From Labilibaculum antarcticum (lineage in GTDB: Bacteria > Bacteroidota > Bacteroidia > Bacteroidales > Marinifilaceae): a stretch of DNA of 64,000 nucleotides. Under the pieces are notes generated by a model. It saw only the letters and a list, made by a program, of their open reading frames with translations. It was not told where the DNA came from and made no database searches. Made by a program: the position numbers and the translations under genes. Numbering within the stretch: position 1 is the stretch's first letter; each line of letters opens with the position of its first letter. The stretch is from NCBI RefSeq assembly GCF_002356295.1, contig NZ_AP018042.1, forward strand, positions 1,396,361 to 1,460,360, read 5' to 3'. Positions 537 to 8,705 of the stretch are shown here, in pieces.

Positions 537-1406
537 ATGTCGAGATCTATACACGTTCTGTCCTTAGTCTTGTTTGTACTTATTGTAGTAGCAGCAATTG
601 TAGTTCTAAGTTATTATGGATTCACGTACTATCATCTGAACATTGAAGAACGATTCTATCATTCCGATCATCAGCTGCTGAGACCAAGCGGAGTGCTCGG
701 GCATGGATTGGGAATTATTGGTTCGTTACTGATTATTACAGGTGTGTTTCTGTATATGGTTCGCAAGAGAATTGCCCGGTTTTCGAGAATTGGCGTACTA
801 AAATACTGGCTCGAATTTCATATTTTTTTGTGCTCGCTAGGACCTGTTCTGATCCTCTTCCATACAGCCTTTAAATTTGGAGGCATTGTCTCCATTTCGT
901 TCTGGAGTATGGTGGCAGTTGTAATCAGCGGAATTATTGGGCGATTCATATATATTCAAATTCCCAGAACAATAGAAGGTCGGGAATTGAGTTTATTAGA
1001 AGTAAGAGATACTAAAACCGACGTAGGAGAACTGCTGAAGAAAGAGTACAATTTGAATGAGGAAAGCCATCAAATTATTGTAGCATCGGTGGCTGGAAAT
1101 TCAAATAACACATCGGGATTACTCCTATTTCGATTGATCAAAAAAATGAATCATGATCGAAAAACCTATAAAAAAATAGATTCAGAACTGAAACGAAACA
1201 AACTCTCTGGCACCGAACGAAAGAAAATTAAGCGTTTAGTGATTAATGAAATTGTACTAAATCGAAAAATTGATCGATTAAACTACATGCAGAAACTTTT
1301 CAAGTACTGGCATGTTGCCCATCTGCCATTTGCACTGGTTATGCTGGTTATTTTACTCATTCATGTAGCAGTTACAATCATTTTCGGATACAAGTGGATA
1401 TTCTGA
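537..1406 (+). CDS. Cytochrome b-like integral membrane protein (probable diheme)
   Basis: A 289-residue inner-membrane protein with about five hydrophobic segments: residues 7-30, 53-75, 92-112, 115-140 and 263-286. Two of these carry paired histidines 14 residues apart, H95/H109 and H262/H276. That is the spacing that lets one helix pair hold two stacked b hemes, as in ferric-reductase-like and b561-type proteins. A cytoplasmic, Lys/Arg-rich stretch (about 145-255) separates the fourth and fifth segments and could dock a soluble partner. It is the first gene of a co-directional set with a ferredoxin/flavoprotein (107 bp downstream) and two multiheme cytochromes. I infer that it carries electrons through the inner membrane between quinone or flavoprotein and periplasmic heme. 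The family name is uncertain; heme binding is inferred from the His pattern only. Confidence 0.75.
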   Translation: MSRSIHVLSLVLFVLIVVAAIVVLSYYGFTYYHLNIEERFYHSDHQLLRPSGVLGHGLGIIGSLLIITGVFLYMVRKRIARFSRIGVLKYWLEFHIFLCSLGPVLILFHTAFKFGGIVSISFWSMVAVVISGIIGRFIYIQIPRTIEGRELSLLEVRDTKTDVGELLKKEYNLNEESHQIIVASVAGNSNNTSGLLLFRLIKKMNHDRKTYKKIDSELKRNKLSGTERKKIKRLVINEIVLNRKIDRLNYMQKLFKYWHVAHLPFALVMLVILLIHVAVTIIFGYKWIF

Positions 1407-1512
1407 TTATTAGAAGTAATTAGTAATTAAAAATAAACAATCTCATCTCTGATTGCAATTTGCTCCTCAGATTATAGAATAAATACCTCGTCCTAAAACA
1501 GAAGCTTAAAAA

Positions 1513-2844
1513 ATGAATTTATTACTTGAGGAAATAATAATTTACGGCTCCGTATTCTTGCTTTGTTTGTTGGTTGTGTTCATTTACATCCGAAAGCAAA
1601 AAAGAGAATCGAACATTGTTGAGCAAAAAATTACGCAAGCCAAAGCTGATGGATTGTATGAACCGGTATCACTTCATCCGGTAGTTGATCAGCATTCCTG
1701 TATAAAGAGCGGTGCTTGCATAACGGTTTGTCCGGAGAAAGATATTCTGGGAATCCGAAATGGGAAGGCTACCGTAATTAATGCGTCTCAATGCATTGGT
1801 CATGGTGCGTGTTTTCATGCCTGCCCTACCCAAGCCATTAGTTTGTGTATTGGTACCGAAAAACGTGGCTTCGAATTGCCTCATGTCGATCAGAATTTTG
1901 AAACCAATGTACCAGGCATTTTTATTGCCGGCGAATTGGGTGGCATGGGCCTAATAAGAAATGCAGTTGAGCAAGGCAGACAAGCCATCGAGAATCTGAC
2001 CAAGAGCATCAAAAAAAATAGCAAAGCCGAATACGATGTACTTATTGTTGGAGCAGGACCAGCGGGAATATCAGCATCCTTAATGGCAAAGAAAAACAAA
2101 CTGAAGTTCATCACTTTGGAGCAAGATAGCCTTGGTGGAACCGTTTTTTCTTTCCCGCGATCGAAAATTGTAATGACCTCCCCTATGGATCTTCCCCTTT
2201 ACGGAAAAGTAAAGTTGTACGAAACAAGCAAAACAGAATTGCTCGAATTATGGGAAGATGTACTTGGTAAAAACGAAATCAGCGTAAGCGAAAACACAAA
2301 GGTTGATGCAATTGAAAAGAAGCACGATTTTTTTAGTATTCGCACAAAAAATGGGGAAGAATATACCTCCCAAACAGTACTAATTAGCATTGGCCGGCGT
2401 GGTAGTCCGCGCAAGCTGAATGTAAACGGGGAACATCTGGAAAAGGTTGCGTACCGATTGCTTGAGCCTGAAAATATCTCCAACAAGAATATTTTGGTGG
2501 TGGGTGGTGGCGATTCGGCCATTGAATCGGCTCTGCTTTTAGCAGATCAAAACAAAGTGAGCTTATCGTACCGAAAAGAATCCTTTAACAGGCTAAAGCC
2601 TAAAAACAGTGAGCAAATTAAAACTGCAATTTCAAAAGGCAGTATCGATGTAATCTACAATTCTAATATTGATCTGATAAAGGAAAATTCTCTTACGCTT
2701 TCGATTACTGATTCGGAAGATAAAATTGCCATTGATAACGATTTGGTTTACATTTTTGCCGGTGGCGAATTACCCTCTCAATTCCTGAAAAACTCGGGCA
2801 TACAAATCACCAAGAAATTTGGCGATGCGATGTTGAAACATTGA
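1513..2844 (+). CDS. Membrane-anchored 4Fe-4S / FAD-NAD(P) oxidoreductase with permuted flavin motifs
   Basis: A 443-residue protein. Residues 7-26 form one transmembrane anchor, leaving the rest in the cytoplasm. Residues 63-104 form a two-cluster ferredoxin: C63-x5-C69-x3-C73-P and C94-x5-C100-x3-C104-P. The usual second Cys of each motif is replaced by S66 and H97. Next comes VPGIFIAGELGGMGLIRNAV (about 133-152), the FAD-closing motif usually at the C-terminus of thioredoxin-reductase-like proteins. Only after it come the FAD-binding VGAGPAG (about 179-185) and the NAD(P)-binding VVGGGDSA (about 325). No CxxC disulfide redox pair is visible. The likely role is oxidation of NAD(P)H and transfer of electrons through Fe-S to the neighbouring cytochrome b-like protein. 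The direction and the partner are inference from the gene order. Confidence 0.8.
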   Translation: MNLLLEEIIIYGSVFLLCLLVVFIYIRKQKRESNIVEQKITQAKADGLYEPVSLHPVVDQHSCIKSGACITVCPEKDILGIRNGKATVINASQCIGHGACFHACPTQAISLCIGTEKRGFELPHVDQNFETNVPGIFIAGELGGMGLIRNAVEQGRQAIENLTKSIKKNSKAEYDVLIVGAGPAGISASLMAKKNKLKFITLEQDSLGGTVFSFPRSKIVMTSPMDLPLYGKVKLYETSKTELLELWEDVLGKNEISVSENTKVDAIEKKHDFFSIRTKNGEEYTSQTVLISIGRRGSPRKLNVNGEHLEKVAYRLLEPENISNKNILVVGGGDSAIESALLLADQNKVSLSYRKESFNRLKPKNSEQIKTAISKGSIDVIYNSNIDLIKENSLTLSITDSEDKIAIDNDLVYIFAGGELPSQFLKNSGIQITKKFGDAMLKH

Positions 2845-2850
2845 AGGAAA

Positions 2851-3195
2851 GTCTGGAAGAGTCTTGAAGAGTCGAAAACGGTCGAACAGTCAAACAGTCG
2901 AACAGTCGAAGAGTCAAAACAGTCGAACAGTCGAACAGTCGAAACAGTCAAACAGTCAAAACAGTCGAACAGTCGAAACAGTCAAACAGTCAAAACAGTC
3001 GAAGAGTCGAAGAGTCAAAACAGTCGAACGGTCGAACAGTCAAAACAGTCGAAGAGTCGAAGAGTCGAACAGTCGAAGAGTCAAAACAGTCGAACGGTCG
3101 AACAGTCGAAACAGTCAAAACAGTCGAACAGTCGAACGGTCGAACAGTCAAAACAGCCGAACAGTCGAACAATCGAAACAGTCAAACAGTCGAAT
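2851..3195. repeat. Minisatellite of 8-9 bp units (GTCGAACA / GTCAAAACA)
   Basis: About 345 bp between the flavoprotein stop and the first multiheme cytochrome are filled with imperfect copies of GTCGAACA, GTCGAAGA, GTCAAACA and the 9-bp form GTCAAAACA. The array begins seven bases after the stop and ends a few bases before the ATG at 3198. It therefore occupies the whole leader of the cytochrome gene. Open frames on both strands here are repeat artefacts. Unit lengths of 8 and 9 bp give no conserved frame. Confidence 0.95.
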
Positions 3196-3197
3196 AA

Positions 3198-4781
3198 ATG
3201 ATAAAACATACCCTCTTCATATTACTCTTGCTTGTTTCACAAGTTGTTCTTGCTCAATTGTCGCCGGGTGATTTAGCAAAGCCTCATGCCAACTTAGAAG
3301 GACTTTCGAATTGCACCAAGTGTCATATTTTGGGCGAAAAGGTAAATAACAGCAGGTGTTTGGATTGTCATACTTTACTCAAAGAAAGAATTGTTTCGAA
3401 TAAAGGTTATCATGCATCGAGCGATATTAAGGGGAAAGAATGCGTTGAATGTCACAGCGATCATCACGGGCGAAAATTTGAAATGATTCGCTTCGACAAA
3501 AACACCTTTAAGCATGACTTAACAGGTTACGAATTGCAGGGAGCGCATCTGAAACTAAATTGTAAAGAATGCCATCAAAGCAAGTTCATCGCTGAAAAGA
3601 AGATTGCCGAAAAAGATTATACATACATGGGATTGGAGCCCAAATGTGCGACTTGCCACACAGATGTTCATCAGCAAACGCTTTCGAATAATTGCAATGA
3701 TTGTCATGATCAGAATCAGTTTGCGCCTGCTTCAAAATTCAATCATAAAAGCACCCAATTCCCTTTGTTGGGCAAACATGAAAATGTATCCTGCGAAAAA
3801 TGCCATCAGGTGGATACAAAAAACAAGAAGAAATTTCAGCAGTTCGCAGGCATTAAATTCAATTCCTGCACTTCCTGCCATACCGATGTTCACAATAACA
3901 AATTCGGGCCAAACTGTACCGATTGCCATACCGTTAACTCATTCAGAACGGTAACAGCACTAAGCAATTTCGATCACAACATTGCCGATTTCAAACTAAC
4001 CGGCAAACATCAAAATGTAGATTGCAAAAGCTGTCACAAAGCTTCTTACACTGCACCAATTGCACACAACCGTTGTTCCAACTGCCATCAGGATTATCAC
4101 AAAGGGCAGTTCGCCAATAAAGGTGCATCGCCAGATTGCAGGGATTGCCATAGCGTAAATGGATTTGTTGGTTCAAGTTATACCATCAATCAGCACAACA
4201 AAAGTGAGTTTCCTTTGCGGGGAGCACATTTGGCCACTCCATGTTTTGCCTGTCATCAACAAAATGAAAAATGGCAATTCCGAAACATCGGTAAAACCTG
4301 TGTCGATTGTCACACCAACATTCACAAAAACTTGATTAGTGATGGTTTTTATCCCAATCAAAACTGCACAGTTTGTCATCAGGAAGATGCATGGACTGAG
4401 ATCGAATTTGATCACAACTTAACCGCCTTTAAATTGAAAGGAGCTCACAGTAAAAAAGACTGTCGCGCCTGTCATTTCAGCAAGAACAATCAGGGCGAAG
4501 CCACACAAAAATTTAGTGGATTTAATAATCAATGTTTGAGTTGCCATAAGGATGAACATCAGAAGCAATTCGAAAAAGAAGGCAAAACCGATTGCCTAAA
4601 CTGCCACCATCATGAGGATTGGAAGATCGCCAATTTTAATCATGATAAGACCGACTTTAAACTGGAAGGAAAACATGCCACTGCTGCTTGTTCGGCATGT
4701 CATAAGCCTCTGGAAATGAATCAAAGCTTTTACACGCAATATAAATTTAAAGATTTCTCATGCGCTACTTGTCATCAATAA
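3198..4781 (+). CDS. Periplasmic multiheme c-type cytochrome (20 CxxCH; cytochrome c3-like repeats)
   Basis: A 527-residue protein with a Sec signal peptide (residues 1-19, ending VVLA before Gln20) and no lipobox. I count 20 CxxCH heme-attachment motifs, from CTKCH near residue 39 to CATCH at the very C-terminus. Many additional His residues come in recurring phrases such as FDHN, GKHxNVxC and CHTDVH, which would supply distal ligands for bis-His hemes of the cytochrome c3/c7 type. The repeating unit contains paired motifs about 20-30 residues apart. The protein probably forms a long heme wire in the periplasm. Its start is preceded directly by the minisatellite, and its 3' end overlaps the next cytochrome gene by 22 bp, which suggests translational coupling. 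No catalytic domain is visible, so electron transfer rather than enzymatic reduction is the simplest reading. Confidence 0.93.
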   Translation: MIKHTLFILLLLVSQVVLAQLSPGDLAKPHANLEGLSNCTKCHILGEKVNNSRCLDCHTLLKERIVSNKGYHASSDIKGKECVECHSDHHGRKFEMIRFDKNTFKHDLTGYELQGAHLKLNCKECHQSKFIAEKKIAEKDYTYMGLEPKCATCHTDVHQQTLSNNCNDCHDQNQFAPASKFNHKSTQFPLLGKHENVSCEKCHQVDTKNKKKFQQFAGIKFNSCTSCHTDVHNNKFGPNCTDCHTVNSFRTVTALSNFDHNIADFKLTGKHQNVDCKSCHKASYTAPIAHNRCSNCHQDYHKGQFANKGASPDCRDCHSVNGFVGSSYTINQHNKSEFPLRGAHLATPCFACHQQNEKWQFRNIGKTCVDCHTNIHKNLISDGFYPNQNCTVCHQEDAWTEIEFDHNLTAFKLKGAHSKKDCRACHFSKNNQGEATQKFSGFNNQCLSCHKDEHQKQFEKEGKTDCLNCHHHEDWKIANFNHDKTDFKLEGKHATAACSACHKPLEMNQSFYTQYKFKDFSCATCHQ

Positions 4782-6220
4782 TCTTGATTTTATCATTTTC
4801 GCTCAATGTATTTTCCCAATCACCACACGGGGAAAACATGAAAATGGATTGTGAAACCTGCCATACTCAGGAAGGCTGGGAGGTTAACCCAAAGACTTTT
4901 ACTTTCGATCATCGGAAAACAAACTTCCTGCTCGAAGGTCAACATCAGGTAACTGATTGTAAATCGTGCCATACTAATTTGGTATTTTCCGAAGCACAAA
5001 ATGAATGCATGCAATGTCATACCGATGTTCACAGCAGTACGCTGGGTTCCGATTGTGCGCAGTGTCATACTTCACAATCGTGGTTGGTGACCAATATTAC
5101 CGAAATTCATCAGCAAACCAGCTTCCCCCTTTTTGGTGCTCATGCCTTAGCCGATTGTTTCGATTGCCATACTTCCAATAACTTTGCGCAATTCGAGCCT
5201 TTGCAGGTGGAGTGCATCAATTGCCACCGACAAGATTATGCGGCGGCAACCGAACCCAATCATGTTGCAGGAAATTACTCTACCAACTGTGAAGATTGTC
5301 ACGAAATGGGTGCTTTCCAATGGTCATCCGGCGGTTTCAACCACGATTTTTTCCCTTTAACGGAAGGTCATGCCATTAGCGATTGTTTCCAATGTCACAC
5401 AAATAATAATTTCTCATCGCTCTCCACCGATTGTTTTTCATGTCACCAAACAGATTACAATTCGAGCACAAGTCCGAACCATGTTTCATCCGGATTGCCA
5501 CAAAATTGTGAATTGTGCCACAGTACAAAAGTGGGTTGGAAACCCGCCAGTTTCGACACTCACAACGATTACTATGTGATACAGGGAGCGCACAATAGGA
5601 TTGCCAGCGATTGTTTTGCCTGCCATGAAGGCTCCTACTCCAACACGCCAAATTCCTGCGTTGGATGCCATCAGGCAGATTTTAATCAGACCACAGATCC
5701 GGCACACATTACATCTGGTTTCTCTACCGATTGTGAAACCTGTCATTCTCAGGACGCCTGGGAACCTGCGGCTTTAAATCACAACGATTATTATGTGATA
5801 CAAGGTGCACATACCAGCATTGCAACGGATTGTTTTGCCTGTCATCAGGGAAGCTATATTGATACTCCAAACACTTGTTTCGGTTGTCATTCCGATGATT
5901 ACAATCAAACAACCGATCCGGCTCATCAAGCAGCTAATTTTCCAACGGAATGCACTGAATGCCATAACGAAAATGCATGGGAACCTTCCACTTTCGATCA
6001 CGATGGACAGTACTTCCCGATTTACAGCGGAAAGCATCAAAACGAATGGAATTCATGTGTCGATTGTCACACCAACGCAAGCAATTACGCCATATTCTCG
6101 TGCATTACTTGTCATGAACACAATCAGGCTGACACCGATGATGATCACAACGAAGTGAACGACTACGTGTACCAAAGCACCTCTTGCTTATCCTGTCATC
6201 CGAACGGAGACAGTGACTAA
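4760..6220 (+). CDS. Periplasmic multiheme c-type cytochrome (19 CxxCH) with tandem modules
   Basis: A 486-residue protein whose ATG lies inside the last codons of the preceding cytochrome, in another frame. It has a Sec signal peptide (about residues 1-19, MRYLSSIILILSFSLNVFSQ) and 19 CxxCH motifs. The C-terminal two thirds are built from near-identical modules containing DYYVIQGAH, DCFACH, a TPN-type turn, a second CxxCH, and NQTTDPAH followed by another CxxCH. This points to recent internal duplication. Together with the upstream gene the pair could bind 39 c hemes. It is probably a periplasmic or outer-membrane-facing partner in the same electron route. No membrane anchor, lipobox or T9SS C-terminal signal is visible, so surface exposure is not supported by the sequence alone. 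Confidence 0.92.
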   Translation: MRYLSSIILILSFSLNVFSQSPHGENMKMDCETCHTQEGWEVNPKTFTFDHRKTNFLLEGQHQVTDCKSCHTNLVFSEAQNECMQCHTDVHSSTLGSDCAQCHTSQSWLVTNITEIHQQTSFPLFGAHALADCFDCHTSNNFAQFEPLQVECINCHRQDYAAATEPNHVAGNYSTNCEDCHEMGAFQWSSGGFNHDFFPLTEGHAISDCFQCHTNNNFSSLSTDCFSCHQTDYNSSTSPNHVSSGLPQNCELCHSTKVGWKPASFDTHNDYYVIQGAHNRIASDCFACHEGSYSNTPNSCVGCHQADFNQTTDPAHITSGFSTDCETCHSQDAWEPAALNHNDYYVIQGAHTSIATDCFACHQGSYIDTPNTCFGCHSDDYNQTTDPAHQAANFPTECTECHNENAWEPSTFDHDGQYFPIYSGKHQNEWNSCVDCHTNASNYAIFSCITCHEHNQADTDDDHNEVNDYVYQSTSCLSCHPNGDSD

Positions 6221-6295
6221 AAGTGATTCAAGAGGATAAAATTGATTATCAGAATATAAGAGAGAGAAAATTAATAGAGTTAAACGGAGATAGAA

Positions 6296-7903
6296 ATGAA
6301 AACTTTACCAGCAATTCTCGTGATTATTTTGCTTTGCCTAAGCCCCTCGCTTAGGGCACAGGAAAAGTTTTTGGAAGGTGAAGTCTCCTACCAAAGCTCG
6401 CAAAATACCTATGTGAAATTTTCAAATACCGAAGCACTTTCCATTGGCGATACGCTATATATTAAAAAGGATTCTGATTTCGTTCCCGTGTTGCTGGTCA
6501 ATAATAAATCATCCATATCGGTAATTGGAATTGCAATTGGAAGCATCAAGCTTGCCAAAGGCGATATAATCATTGCCTTTACGGCAGATGAAAAAACACC
6601 CGAAAAAGATATTATTCTGACTGAAGATTCCGAATATAATATTGAGGTTGTTGAAAAAACAACACCAGCACCCAGAACCAAACAAGAATTGAACCGGGAG
6701 GAACAAATCAAGGGTAAAATTTCAGCCTCATCCTACTCCAACTTGTCCAGTTCATCGGGTGGCAGTAATCACCGTATGAGATATAGTTTATCGATGAATG
6801 CTAAAAACATCGACAATTCTAAAATTTCTGCCGAAACCTACATTCGCTTTTCGCACAATTCAGGCGAGTGGGATGAAGTAAAGTCGGATATTTTTAATGC
6901 GCTAAAAATTTACAATCTGGCCATACGTTACGATGCCAACGAGAGCACCAGCATTTGGCTGGGGCGAAAAATTAATCGGAAAGTTTCTAACATTGGCGCC
7001 GTTGATGGTGTGCAGGCAGAAAAGAAATTTGGCAATTTCTCGCTGGGACTTATTGCAGGCTCGAGGCCTGATTACCAAGACTATTCTTTCAATTTTGATT
7101 TGATGCAGTTTGGAGGATATCTGGAGCATAGCATCAAAACAAAAGTGGGAAGCATGCAAAACACAGTATCCTTCTTCGAACAAAAATACAAATCGAATAC
7201 CGACAGACGATTTGCCTACTATCAGCACAGCAATTCTCTTTTGAAGAATTTGTTCCTGTTTGCCTCTTTTGAAGTTGACCTGTACAAATTGGAAGAAGAA
7301 GTTTCGAAAAACACTTTCGATTTAACCAGCATGTATCTTTCTTTGCGATATCGGGTAACGAAACAGTTATCGCTTTCGGGTTCACTCGATAGGCGCAAGA
7401 ACGTGGTTTACTACGAAACCTTTAAAAGTCTGGCTTTTCAGATATTGGAAAATGAAACACGTCAGGGAATTCGCTTTCGGGTAAACTACCGCCCAACGAA
7501 TCGTATTTCGCTGGGGGCAAATATCGGTCATCGTTCCCGAAAAAGCGAAGTGGAAGATTCTAAAAACTTATATGCCTTTGTTTCTTATCGCAACATTCCG
7601 GGAATTAACAGCAATGCTACTTTATCAAGCTCCATTTTGCAGACTCATTATTTAGATGGACAGATATACAAACTAAGACTTTCCCGAGATATTATTCCGG
7701 GCAAACTATTTGGAGGCATCAACTACAGCTATGTTAATTATCAATACAAATTCAACGATAGCGAATTGATTCAGCACATTGGTGAAGCAAATATATCGTG
7801 GCGAATCGATAAAAAGCTCTCCTTCTCGGCCAATTACGAAGGCACATTTCAATCGTCGCAGAATTACTCAAGGCTATATTTGAATTTGATTAAGAGGTTT
7901 TAA
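6296..7903 (+). CDS. Outer-membrane beta-barrel protein of the multiheme cytochrome locus
   Basis: A 535-residue protein with a signal peptide (about 1-21, ending LRAQ). Residues 22-95 form a small beta-rich domain (an SH3-like fold is my guess). A charged linker follows at about 105-140. From about residue 145 to the end there are alternating hydrophobic/polar strands rich in Tyr, Phe, Ser and Asn. The last residues, YLNLIKRF, end in Phe, the usual signal for outer-membrane barrel assembly. It starts 76 bp after the second cytochrome. A barrel beside multiheme cytochromes recalls porin-cytochrome conduits (MtrB/PioB type), but I see no CxxC and no convincing MtrB similarity. It may be the sheath for a heme wire, or an unrelated porin. 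Confidence 0.75.
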   Translation: MKTLPAILVIILLCLSPSLRAQEKFLEGEVSYQSSQNTYVKFSNTEALSIGDTLYIKKDSDFVPVLLVNNKSSISVIGIAIGSIKLAKGDIIIAFTADEKTPEKDIILTEDSEYNIEVVEKTTPAPRTKQELNREEQIKGKISASSYSNLSSSSGGSNHRMRYSLSMNAKNIDNSKISAETYIRFSHNSGEWDEVKSDIFNALKIYNLAIRYDANESTSIWLGRKINRKVSNIGAVDGVQAEKKFGNFSLGLIAGSRPDYQDYSFNFDLMQFGGYLEHSIKTKVGSMQNTVSFFEQKYKSNTDRRFAYYQHSNSLLKNLFLFASFEVDLYKLEEEVSKNTFDLTSMYLSLRYRVTKQLSLSGSLDRRKNVVYYETFKSLAFQILENETRQGIRFRVNYRPTNRISLGANIGHRSRKSEVEDSKNLYAFVSYRNIPGINSNATLSSSILQTHYLDGQIYKLRLSRDIIPGKLFGGINYSYVNYQYKFNDSELIQHIGEANISWRIDKKLSFSANYEGTFQSSQNYSRLYLNLIKRF

Positions 7904-7917
7904 TTTGAGTGCAATAC

Positions 7918-8012
7918 AAACCAGACAGGTCTATTTACATGATGTAAATAGACCTGTCTGGTTTATAAGAGATGTGTTTTTAATGCCCCAGCTAAAGCAG
8001 GGGACAAAAGGA
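7918..8012. repeat. Palindrome-containing intergenic repeat, copy 1
   Basis: It begins with a perfect 47-bp palindrome (23-bp arms around a single G, 7918-7964; arm starts AAACCAGACAGGTC). A shared tail follows: ATAAGAGATGTGTTTTTAAT, then a small CCCCAGC/GCAGGGG hairpin. The second copy lies 334 bp downstream. The palindrome could act as a terminator for the cytochrome operon or be a REP/MITE-like element. Confidence 0.9.
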
Positions 8013-8127: not shown

Positions 8128-8251
8128 GCTAGACAATTCACCTCAATTCGCTCCTGTAAATTTGCAATTTACAGCTAAGGTGCTTAGGATTTACAATCCG
8201 ATTTGAAACAAAAGAAATTAGAAATTTCTTACTCCAGCTCTTCTAATACAG

Positions 8252-8346
8252 AAACCTGACAGGTCTATATACATGATGCAAATAGACCTGTCAGGTTTTA
8301 TAAGAGATGTGTTTTTAATGCCCCAGCTGAAGCAGGGGACAAAGGA
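8252..8346. repeat. Palindrome-containing intergenic repeat, copy 2
   Basis: The second copy of the element at 7918-8012. The 23-bp arms 8252-8274 and 8276-8298 are slightly degenerate near the centre. Several arm positions differ from copy 1 (for example CCTGACAGG against CCAGACAGG), yet the changes are paired on both arms. This suggests the hairpin, rather than the primary sequence, is maintained. The tail is nearly identical to copy 1. Confidence 0.9.
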
Positions 8347-8449: not shown

Positions 8450-8705
8450 CCAGAAAATTAGATTTTGAAGCACTTGCGGGCTAAGTGCCAAGAAATTGGA
8501 TTTCGGAGCTCTCGCGACCTGCATTGTGCGAGGAAATCCGGTTTTGAAGCACTTGCGGACTGTAAGTGCCAGGAAATTAGATTTTGAGCTTCTCGCGGCC
8601 TGCATTGTTCAAGGAAATTCGGTTTTGAAGCACTTGCGGGCTGCAAGTGCCAGAAAATTAGATTTTGGAGCTCTCGCGGGCTGCAAGTGCAAGGAAATAT
8701 TTTAG
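8450..8705. repeat. Tandem array of six ~40-bp units plus a partial seventh
   Basis: The units start at 8450, 8488, 8529, 8569, 8610 and 8650, with a truncated one at 8690. Lengths are 38-41 bp. Each has the form C(C/A)AGGAAATTnGnTTTTGAAGC followed by (A/T)CTCGCGGnCTGCAAGTG or a variant. Alternating units resemble each other more (CACTTGCGG type against TCTCGCG type), so the array may have grown as about 80-bp dimers. Open frames across it are repeat artefacts. Confidence 0.9.

Follow-up and report, generated by a model that had tools for sequence, protein, structure and literature searches.

The window analyzed here, i.e., the whole 64 kb stretch of DNA, includes five genes forming one compact operon, all on the plus strand. 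ORF calls placed them exactly where, and in the order in which, an earlier sequence-only reading had put them. The features of the locus are as follows:

537-1406, plus strand: gene for a b-type membrane protein (289 aa)
1513-2844, plus strand: gene for an Fe-S flavoprotein (443 aa)
1699-1824, plus strand: two ferredoxin-type Fe-S motifs of the flavoprotein (homologue alignment)
2866-3194, plus strand: array of the imperfect 8-bp tandem repeat AACAGTCG, between the flavoprotein and cytochrome 1 genes
3198-4781, plus strand: gene for cytochrome 1 (527 aa)
4760-6220, plus strand: gene for cytochrome 2 (486 aa)
6296-7903, plus strand: gene for an outer-membrane barrel (535 aa, C-terminus KRF)
7920-7962, no strand: perfect 20-bp palindrome directly 3' of the barrel gene
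b protein, H95/H109 in helix 3 and H262/H276 in helix 5: His pairs
b protein, residues 131-135 in helix 4: SGIIG
Flavoprotein, residues 8-26: N-terminal membrane helix (helix prediction)
Flavoprotein, residues 174-434: FAD/NAD(P)H domain, YpdA/thioredoxin-reductase-like
Barrel protein, residues 24-96: small N-terminal beta domain, with a signal peptide before and a linker after it (AlphaFold2)
Barrel protein, residues 137-534: 22-strand barrel region with C-terminal Phe (AlphaFold2)

The same five-gene order was found again in relatives. The two cytochrome genes overlap by 22 nt, and by motif count no other ORF of the window holds even two CxxCH motifs. The ~330-bp repeat array fills the gap between the flavoprotein and cytochrome 1 genes, which spans only 76–220 bp in close relatives, while the palindrome, with a terminator-like score on the minus strand, is the likely end of transcription. 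The cluster is preceded, at a distance of a few kb, by genes for an NrfH-like cytochrome and for ResB/CcsA maturation.

The 39 c hemes of the sequence-only reading could be counted exactly: 20 CxxCH motifs in cytochrome 1 and 19 (1 + 6 × 3) in cytochrome 2, each protein carrying a signal peptide. These counts are not a matter of chance, since both proteins match Pfam cytochrome c7/c3 domains (E about 1e-23). All 20 motifs of cytochrome 1 are kept across 22 relatives, save one degenerate motif in one sequence, and its heme number is 20 or 23 in 93/98 relatives and in 63/66 type-I loci. Other multiheme cytochromes (MHCs) of type-I loci range from 9 to 73 hemes, with counts of 1 mod 3 in 71/85 (binomial p 2e-21), and close relatives differ in cytochrome 2 by the gain or loss of whole triheme units. 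Cytochrome 1 thus appears to be a fixed ruler and cytochrome 2 a variable wire that changes mostly in three-heme steps, a pattern that is apparently new. Among solved structures, the best match to cytochrome 1 (E 8e-9), which we take to be the GSU1996 dodecaheme “nanowire” cytochrome (PDB 3OV0), is built of tandem c7-type triheme modules; cytochrome 1 itself gave no usable AlphaFold2 model (pTM 0.35), and a fold search with it found no match. For cytochrome 2, neither a lipobox nor a T9SS tail was detected. A match to the MtrC-type model PF22113 (46 bits vs a cut-off of 30) was discounted, as scores of this kind can be inflated by CxxCH repeats. The long forms of cytochrome 2, at least, probably reach outside the cell, because a wire of 73 hemes would not seem to fit into the periplasm without folding.

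The b protein has five predicted hydrophobic helices and four His residues that are invariant among the relatives compared. Because these form two HX13H pairs, the protein probably binds two b hemes, in which case the system would hold 41 hemes in total (39 c + 2 b); residues 135–264 make up a large basic loop, probably on the cytoplasmic side. Across the b-protein family, PF01794 (FRD domain) was unmatched, and DUF4405 matched weakly in 2/23 members only.

The flavoprotein combines Pfam matches to Pyr_redox and to a dicluster Fer4. Its first Fe-S motif reads C63-x5-C69-x3-C73-P, with S, C, T, or A at residue 66 in relatives and G in one, and the second reads C94-x2-H97-x2-C100-x3-C104-P, with His97 invariant in 154/154 homologues. 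On inspection, the FAD domain is without the CxxC of thioredoxin reductases, so electrons probably leave the flavoprotein via its Fe-S clusters.

For the barrel protein, AlphaFold2 predicted 22 strands (pLDDT 81.5, pTM 0.64), in agreement with the barrel ending in Phe that had been read from the sequence. A fold search returned only generic barrels (MOMP, FimD/PapC, AlgE), with no MtrB among the matches listed.

Taken together, these components identify the system as a form of PCC3 found in Bacteroidota. PCC3 is a porin-cytochrome cluster that He et al. (2017, PMC5566968) described in Proteobacteria that oxidise Fe(II), among them Sideroxydans lithotrophicus ES-1 (Slit_0867-0870). The PCC3 inner-membrane protein (IMP) is defined by ~300 aa, five TM helices, two WX3HX13H motifs in helices 3 and 5, and SGXXG in helix 4 (PMC5566968): the b protein here has the five helices and the motifs (W91-H95-H109 and W258-H262-H276), and is homologous to the Sideroxydans IMP (hhalign E 6e-20). 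Both systems share the order b protein, cytochrome 1, cytochrome 2, porin; a ~21-heme periplasmic cytochrome with few amino acids per heme (here 20 hemes, 26 aa/heme); a large and variable second MHC (here 19 hemes, 9–73 in relatives); and an outer-membrane barrel. Sideroxydans proteins of 21–27 hemes score 285–384 bits with the cytochrome 1 model of the window family. As for the second MHC of PCC3, we infer an extracellular position for cytochrome 2. The two versions differ in that the flavoprotein gene is part of the operon here, whereas in Sideroxydans it is encoded on the opposite strand, the hemes of cytochrome 1 number 20/23 here vs 21/24/27 there, and the barrel has 535 aa and no TPR-like insert vs 711–777 aa. 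Homology of the barrel to the proteobacterial porin is only suggestive: direct hhalign was not significant (prob 1%, E 0.05), and alignment through type-II relatives gave E 1e-4 and prob 54%. The sequence-only reading had proposed an undescribed system of Bacteroidota, and neither term holds, as PCC3 was described in 2017 from Proteobacteria and has relatives in many other phyla. In the literature searched, we found no biochemistry or genetics for any PCC3, and nothing linking PCC3, Bacteroidota, and multiheme cytochromes.

The linkage of all five genes is conserved. Across 247 genomes of the order, 28 carried both barrel and flavoprotein, one the barrel only, and one the flavoprotein only (Fisher p 1e-34, uncorrected for relatedness). 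The cluster is present in about 12% of sampled genomes of the order; within the genus, 4/9 members have the flavoprotein. Named hosts include Maribellus, Emticicia, Yeosuana, and Arenibacter. A barrel found elsewhere without the cytochromes had been named beforehand as evidence against a common system, yet both cytochromes and the flavoprotein are present in 55 of the 57 barrel loci whose upstream sequence was long enough; of the remaining two, one has a barrel gene interrupted by in-frame stops. When loci were fetched by flavoprotein only, 74 of 80 contained a b protein and/or a cytochrome with at least 10 hemes, and 58 both. Similarly, in 34 genomes of the genus Sideroxydans, IMP and flavoprotein occurred together in 27, the IMP only in one, and the flavoprotein only in one, and the flavoprotein adjoins a PCC3-type cluster in 16/18 fetched loci. 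Adjacency is not absolute, since a second PCC3-like IMP of ES-1 (G709:C1:1435288) lies >500 kb from both flavoprotein genes. Overall, the flavoprotein appears to be a conserved PCC3 partner, apparently new and missing from the published model (although the supplements of He et al. may include it), and the spread of the cluster in this order and, via the flavoprotein, in many other phyla also appears to be new.

The pieces are thus a conserved unit with the predicted topology of a chain from NAD(P)H to the outside, as first read, and we consider a PCC3-type conduit with a cytoplasmic entry module the best interpretation (probability roughly 0.55). Electrons would pass from NAD(P)H to FAD and the two Fe-S clusters of the membrane-anchored flavoprotein, then to the cytoplasm-side b heme (H95/H262) and the periplasm-side b heme (H109/H276), across the periplasm through the 20-heme cytochrome to the 22-strand barrel with cytochrome 2, and finally to an extracellular Fe(III)/Mn(IV) oxide, humics, an electrode, or a partner cell. 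Contact and electron transfer between the proteins, the passage of cytochrome 2 through or beyond the barrel, and outward flow are all inferred. The direction would follow from general bioenergetics, in that entry via NAD(P)H, FAD, and Fe-S follows a logic like that of NOX/ferric reductases, while electrons moving inward from Fe(II) to NAD(P)+ would have to go against both membrane potential and redox potential.

The same conduit could instead be quinone-linked, the b protein exchanging with menaquinol and the flavoprotein acting separately or as a regulatory input. In the proposal of He et al. 2017, the quinone pool supplies the electrons for extracellular respiration, and the two HX13H pairs do resemble quinone-active cytochromes b; however, the flavoprotein and the IMP/barrel are nearly always inherited together, and no quinone-site motif was identified in this analysis, so that we regard this option as rather unlikely. 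Less likely still is electron uptake, in which extracellular Fe(II), Mn(II), or solid donors would feed quinone or reductive metabolism: direct NAD(P)+ reduction by Fe(II) is uphill, and the four hosts named above are heterotrophs that, as far as we know, have not been described as iron oxidisers. PCC3 was nonetheless discovered in Fe(II) oxidisers, and Sideroxydans genomes commonly carry it (PMC5566968, PMC10734462). Expression points both ways: that of the ES-1 genes falls rather than rises on Fe(II) (PMC8788666), while the inner-membrane gene of PCC3 copy 2 in Sideroxydans CL21 goes up when cells can oxidise iron (PMC12442390), which favors the opposite direction in CL21. Finally, it is very improbable that the system stores electrons in the periplasm or supplies them to a soluble reductase, the barrel being an ordinary porin: high heme counts have been suggested as a capacitor (PMC10734462) and the NrfH-like and ResB/CcsA genes are nearby, but no reductase genes were recognised in the clusters, no terminal reductase domain was found (as the sequence-only reading had said), no intact barrel clearly lacks cytochromes among the 57 loci, and up to 73 hemes per protein are hard to explain in a periplasmic store.

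Lists of possible iron oxidases have included PCC3 since 2017, and the flavoprotein partner now offers a concrete entry point and a testable direction. Extending the NAD(P)H-driven reading, we tentatively suggest, as a conjecture somewhat short of an even chance, that PCC3 generally may be a NOX-like trans-envelope exporter and not an iron oxidase, with entry through a His-ligated Fe-S flavoprotein and a reach set by triheme gain and loss. If true, such an exporter could explain how fermentative Bacteroidota like Labilibaculum reduce metal oxides (PMC5760507). Given how widely the cluster occurs in Bacteroidota and other phyla, many heterotrophs that have not been considered electroactive may be electron exporters. 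The contrast between fixed and modular heme lengths is a natural experiment in how wide the periplasm is and how far the wire reaches.

Among other known systems, the earlier separation from Mtr, Pio, Omc, and Ext sets stands (Mtr/Pio were tested, and Omc/Ext models scored below cut-offs), while the impression of an unrecognised system does not, given PCC3. MtrCAB/MtoAB/PioAB similarly combine a porin with multiheme cytochromes as an outer-membrane conduit, but here there is no DmsE/MtrA-type decaheme (TIGR03508 45 bits vs a cut-off of 192), the barrel has no MtrB/PioB-family match in Pfam or NCBIfam, and CymA is absent from the cluster. GSU1996 shares the tandem c7-type triheme modules of cytochrome 1 but has 12 hemes, and we know of no porin operon in which it occurs with an IMP and a flavoprotein. 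NOX/FRE enzymes share the logic of NAD(P)H, FAD, two stacked b hemes on HX13H pairs, and inner-membrane crossing; here, in contrast, a separate YpdA/TrxR-like Fe-S flavoprotein takes the place of the FNR-like domain and PF01794 is absent, so that the likeness is one of mechanism only.

The cluster comprises five plus-strand genes, and a recount returned exactly the open reading frames, coordinates and CxxCH numbers (20 and 19) of an earlier sequence-only reading; beyond the two cytochrome genes, no ORF in the window carries even two CxxCH motifs. The genes and repeats are as follows.

537-1406 (+), b protein, 289 aa
1513-2844 (+), flavoprotein, 443 aa
2866-3194, 8-bp tandem repeat array, unit AACAGTCG, 38 imperfect copies, between flavoprotein and cytochrome 1
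3198-4781 (+), cytochrome 1, 20 CxxCH
4760-6220 (+), cytochrome 2, 19 CxxCH
6296-7903 (+), barrel
7920-7962, 20-bp perfect palindrome, directly past the last gene (barrel)
8463-8698, 81-bp tandem repeat, after two palindromes

The 22-nt overlap of the cytochrome genes and the small intergenic gaps argue for a single transcript, with the exception of the 353 bp between flavoprotein and cytochrome 1, which the 8-bp array fills. Since this gap measures 76–220 bp in close relatives, changes in its length could alter cytochrome expression. A second, similar long palindrome (both are of the CAGGTCTAT...ATAGACCTG type) lies at about 8251-8297, a few hundred bases from the first. Upstream of the window and a few kb from the cluster, L061:96-5589 (G000:C1:1388595-1394088) encodes a NapC/NirT-type tetrahaem cytochrome, a barrel of alginate-export-like type and a ResB/CcsA fusion for cytochrome c maturation.

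Across 247 Bacteroidales genomes, searching with the barrel alone yielded 29 strong carriers and searching with the flavoprotein alone 29 carriers, 28 being common to both. A barrel occurring without the cytochromes had been named beforehand as evidence against the proposed system; instead, of the 57 barrel loci whose upstream sequence reached 6.5 kb or more, 55 included the 20-haem cytochrome together with the flavoprotein and two or more multihaem cytochromes (MHCs), and 54 the b protein. One of the two exceptions has an 18-haem cytochrome alongside and a contig end close by; the other belongs to genome G504. There, the barrel copy (L197, G504:C26:36458-37933) contains two in-frame TAG codons, lacks neighbouring genes for the 20-haem cytochrome, the flavoprotein and the b protein, and is probably a decayed duplicate. 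When named genomes were searched with the flavoprotein alone, 74 of 80 loci held a large MHC, the b protein or both within the fetched stretch. In the flavoprotein tree, Bacteroidota/Ignavibacteriota formed a single, strongly supported clade of 44, outside which fell Gallionellaceae and other Pseudomonadota, Nitrospirota, Acidobacteriota, Calditrichota, Fidelibacterota, Planctomycetota and others. An alternative Bacteroidota arrangement places the flavoprotein after the barrel. For the window's barrel, a structure model predicts 22 strands and a small beta domain at the N-terminus.

Both cytochromes are built of triheme modules of ~75 residues, and the nearest solved relative of cytochrome 1 is GSU1996 (PDB 3OV0). 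In 93 of 98 relatives the haem number of cytochrome 1 is either 20 or 23. Other MHCs of window-like clusters span 9–73 haems, one more than a multiple of three in 71 of 85; within this bacterial family, cytochrome 2 has 16, 19 or 22, differing by whole triheme units (~73 residues). The simplest reading is a fixed wire for a fixed periplasm and a variable wire beyond it, with which length arguments in PMC10734462 agree.

The b protein contains five helices, and its two HX13H pairs are invariant; from charge distribution (positive-inside rule), H95/H262 would face the cytoplasm and H109/H276 the periplasm. In the flavoprotein, a single N-terminal helix and a pair of ferredoxin-type motifs precede an FAD/NAD(P)H domain of YpdA/thioredoxin-reductase-like type. 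The second motif (CxxHxxCxxxCP, window 1792-1824, residues 94-104) retains its His in all 154 homologues compared, which come from many phyla, and the residue matching the second Cys of the first motif is usually S, C, T or A. Together these features suggest an unusually ligated cluster; CxxHxxCxxxCP possibly marks a His-ligated Fe-S cluster as a family signature. R354, R360, K362 and N365, nearly invariant in the same comparison, presumably fall in the NADPH-binding region of YpdA-type enzymes. A Myxococcota homologue (L127), a 1314-aa ORF adjoining an IMP (PCC3 inner-membrane protein), is possibly a fusion or an artefact of an ORF extending to the contig end.

The flavoprotein would be the cytoplasmic entry point for electrons. 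By analogy with NOX enzymes, flow from NAD(P)H to the outside would be downhill in both redox and membrane potential, and would dissipate the latter rather than conserve it, which fits fermenters shedding excess reductant. According to PMC5760507, oxides of Fe(III) and Mn(IV) are reduced by Labilibaculum, which is a fermenter of the Bacteroidetes. Expression data from iron oxidisers are mixed.

The sequence-only reading had considered the system unrecognised and possibly undescribed; it is instead a variant of PCC3, the cluster of porin, large variable MHC, periplasmic MHC (~21 haems) and an IMP bearing SGXXG and a pair of WX3HX13H motifs (PMC5566968). Porin, both MHCs and the IMP with its motifs all match, and IMP profiles of the window and Sideroxydans groups are homologous (E 6e-20); sequence comparison is only suggestive of homology between Bacteroidota-type and Sideroxydans barrels. 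In the Sideroxydans genome G709, taken to be S. lithotrophicus ES-1 because its 17- and 21-haem MHCs fit Slit_0868/0869, the flavoprotein is the porin's neighbour, encoded on the opposite strand; most other Sideroxydans have it divergent from the IMP. A more divergent IMP type recurs in Sideroxydans without an adjacent flavoprotein (e.g., G709:C1:1435288-1436121), probably the IMP of a second PCC3 copy. He et al. (PMC5566968) mention neither flavoprotein nor FAD in their main text, and the Gallionellaceae pangenome paper (PMC10734462) mentions neither flavoprotein nor NADPH. The operon is a real, strongly conserved, predicted electron conduit and a new variant of PCC3, whose flavoprotein partner and breadth of distribution seem new.
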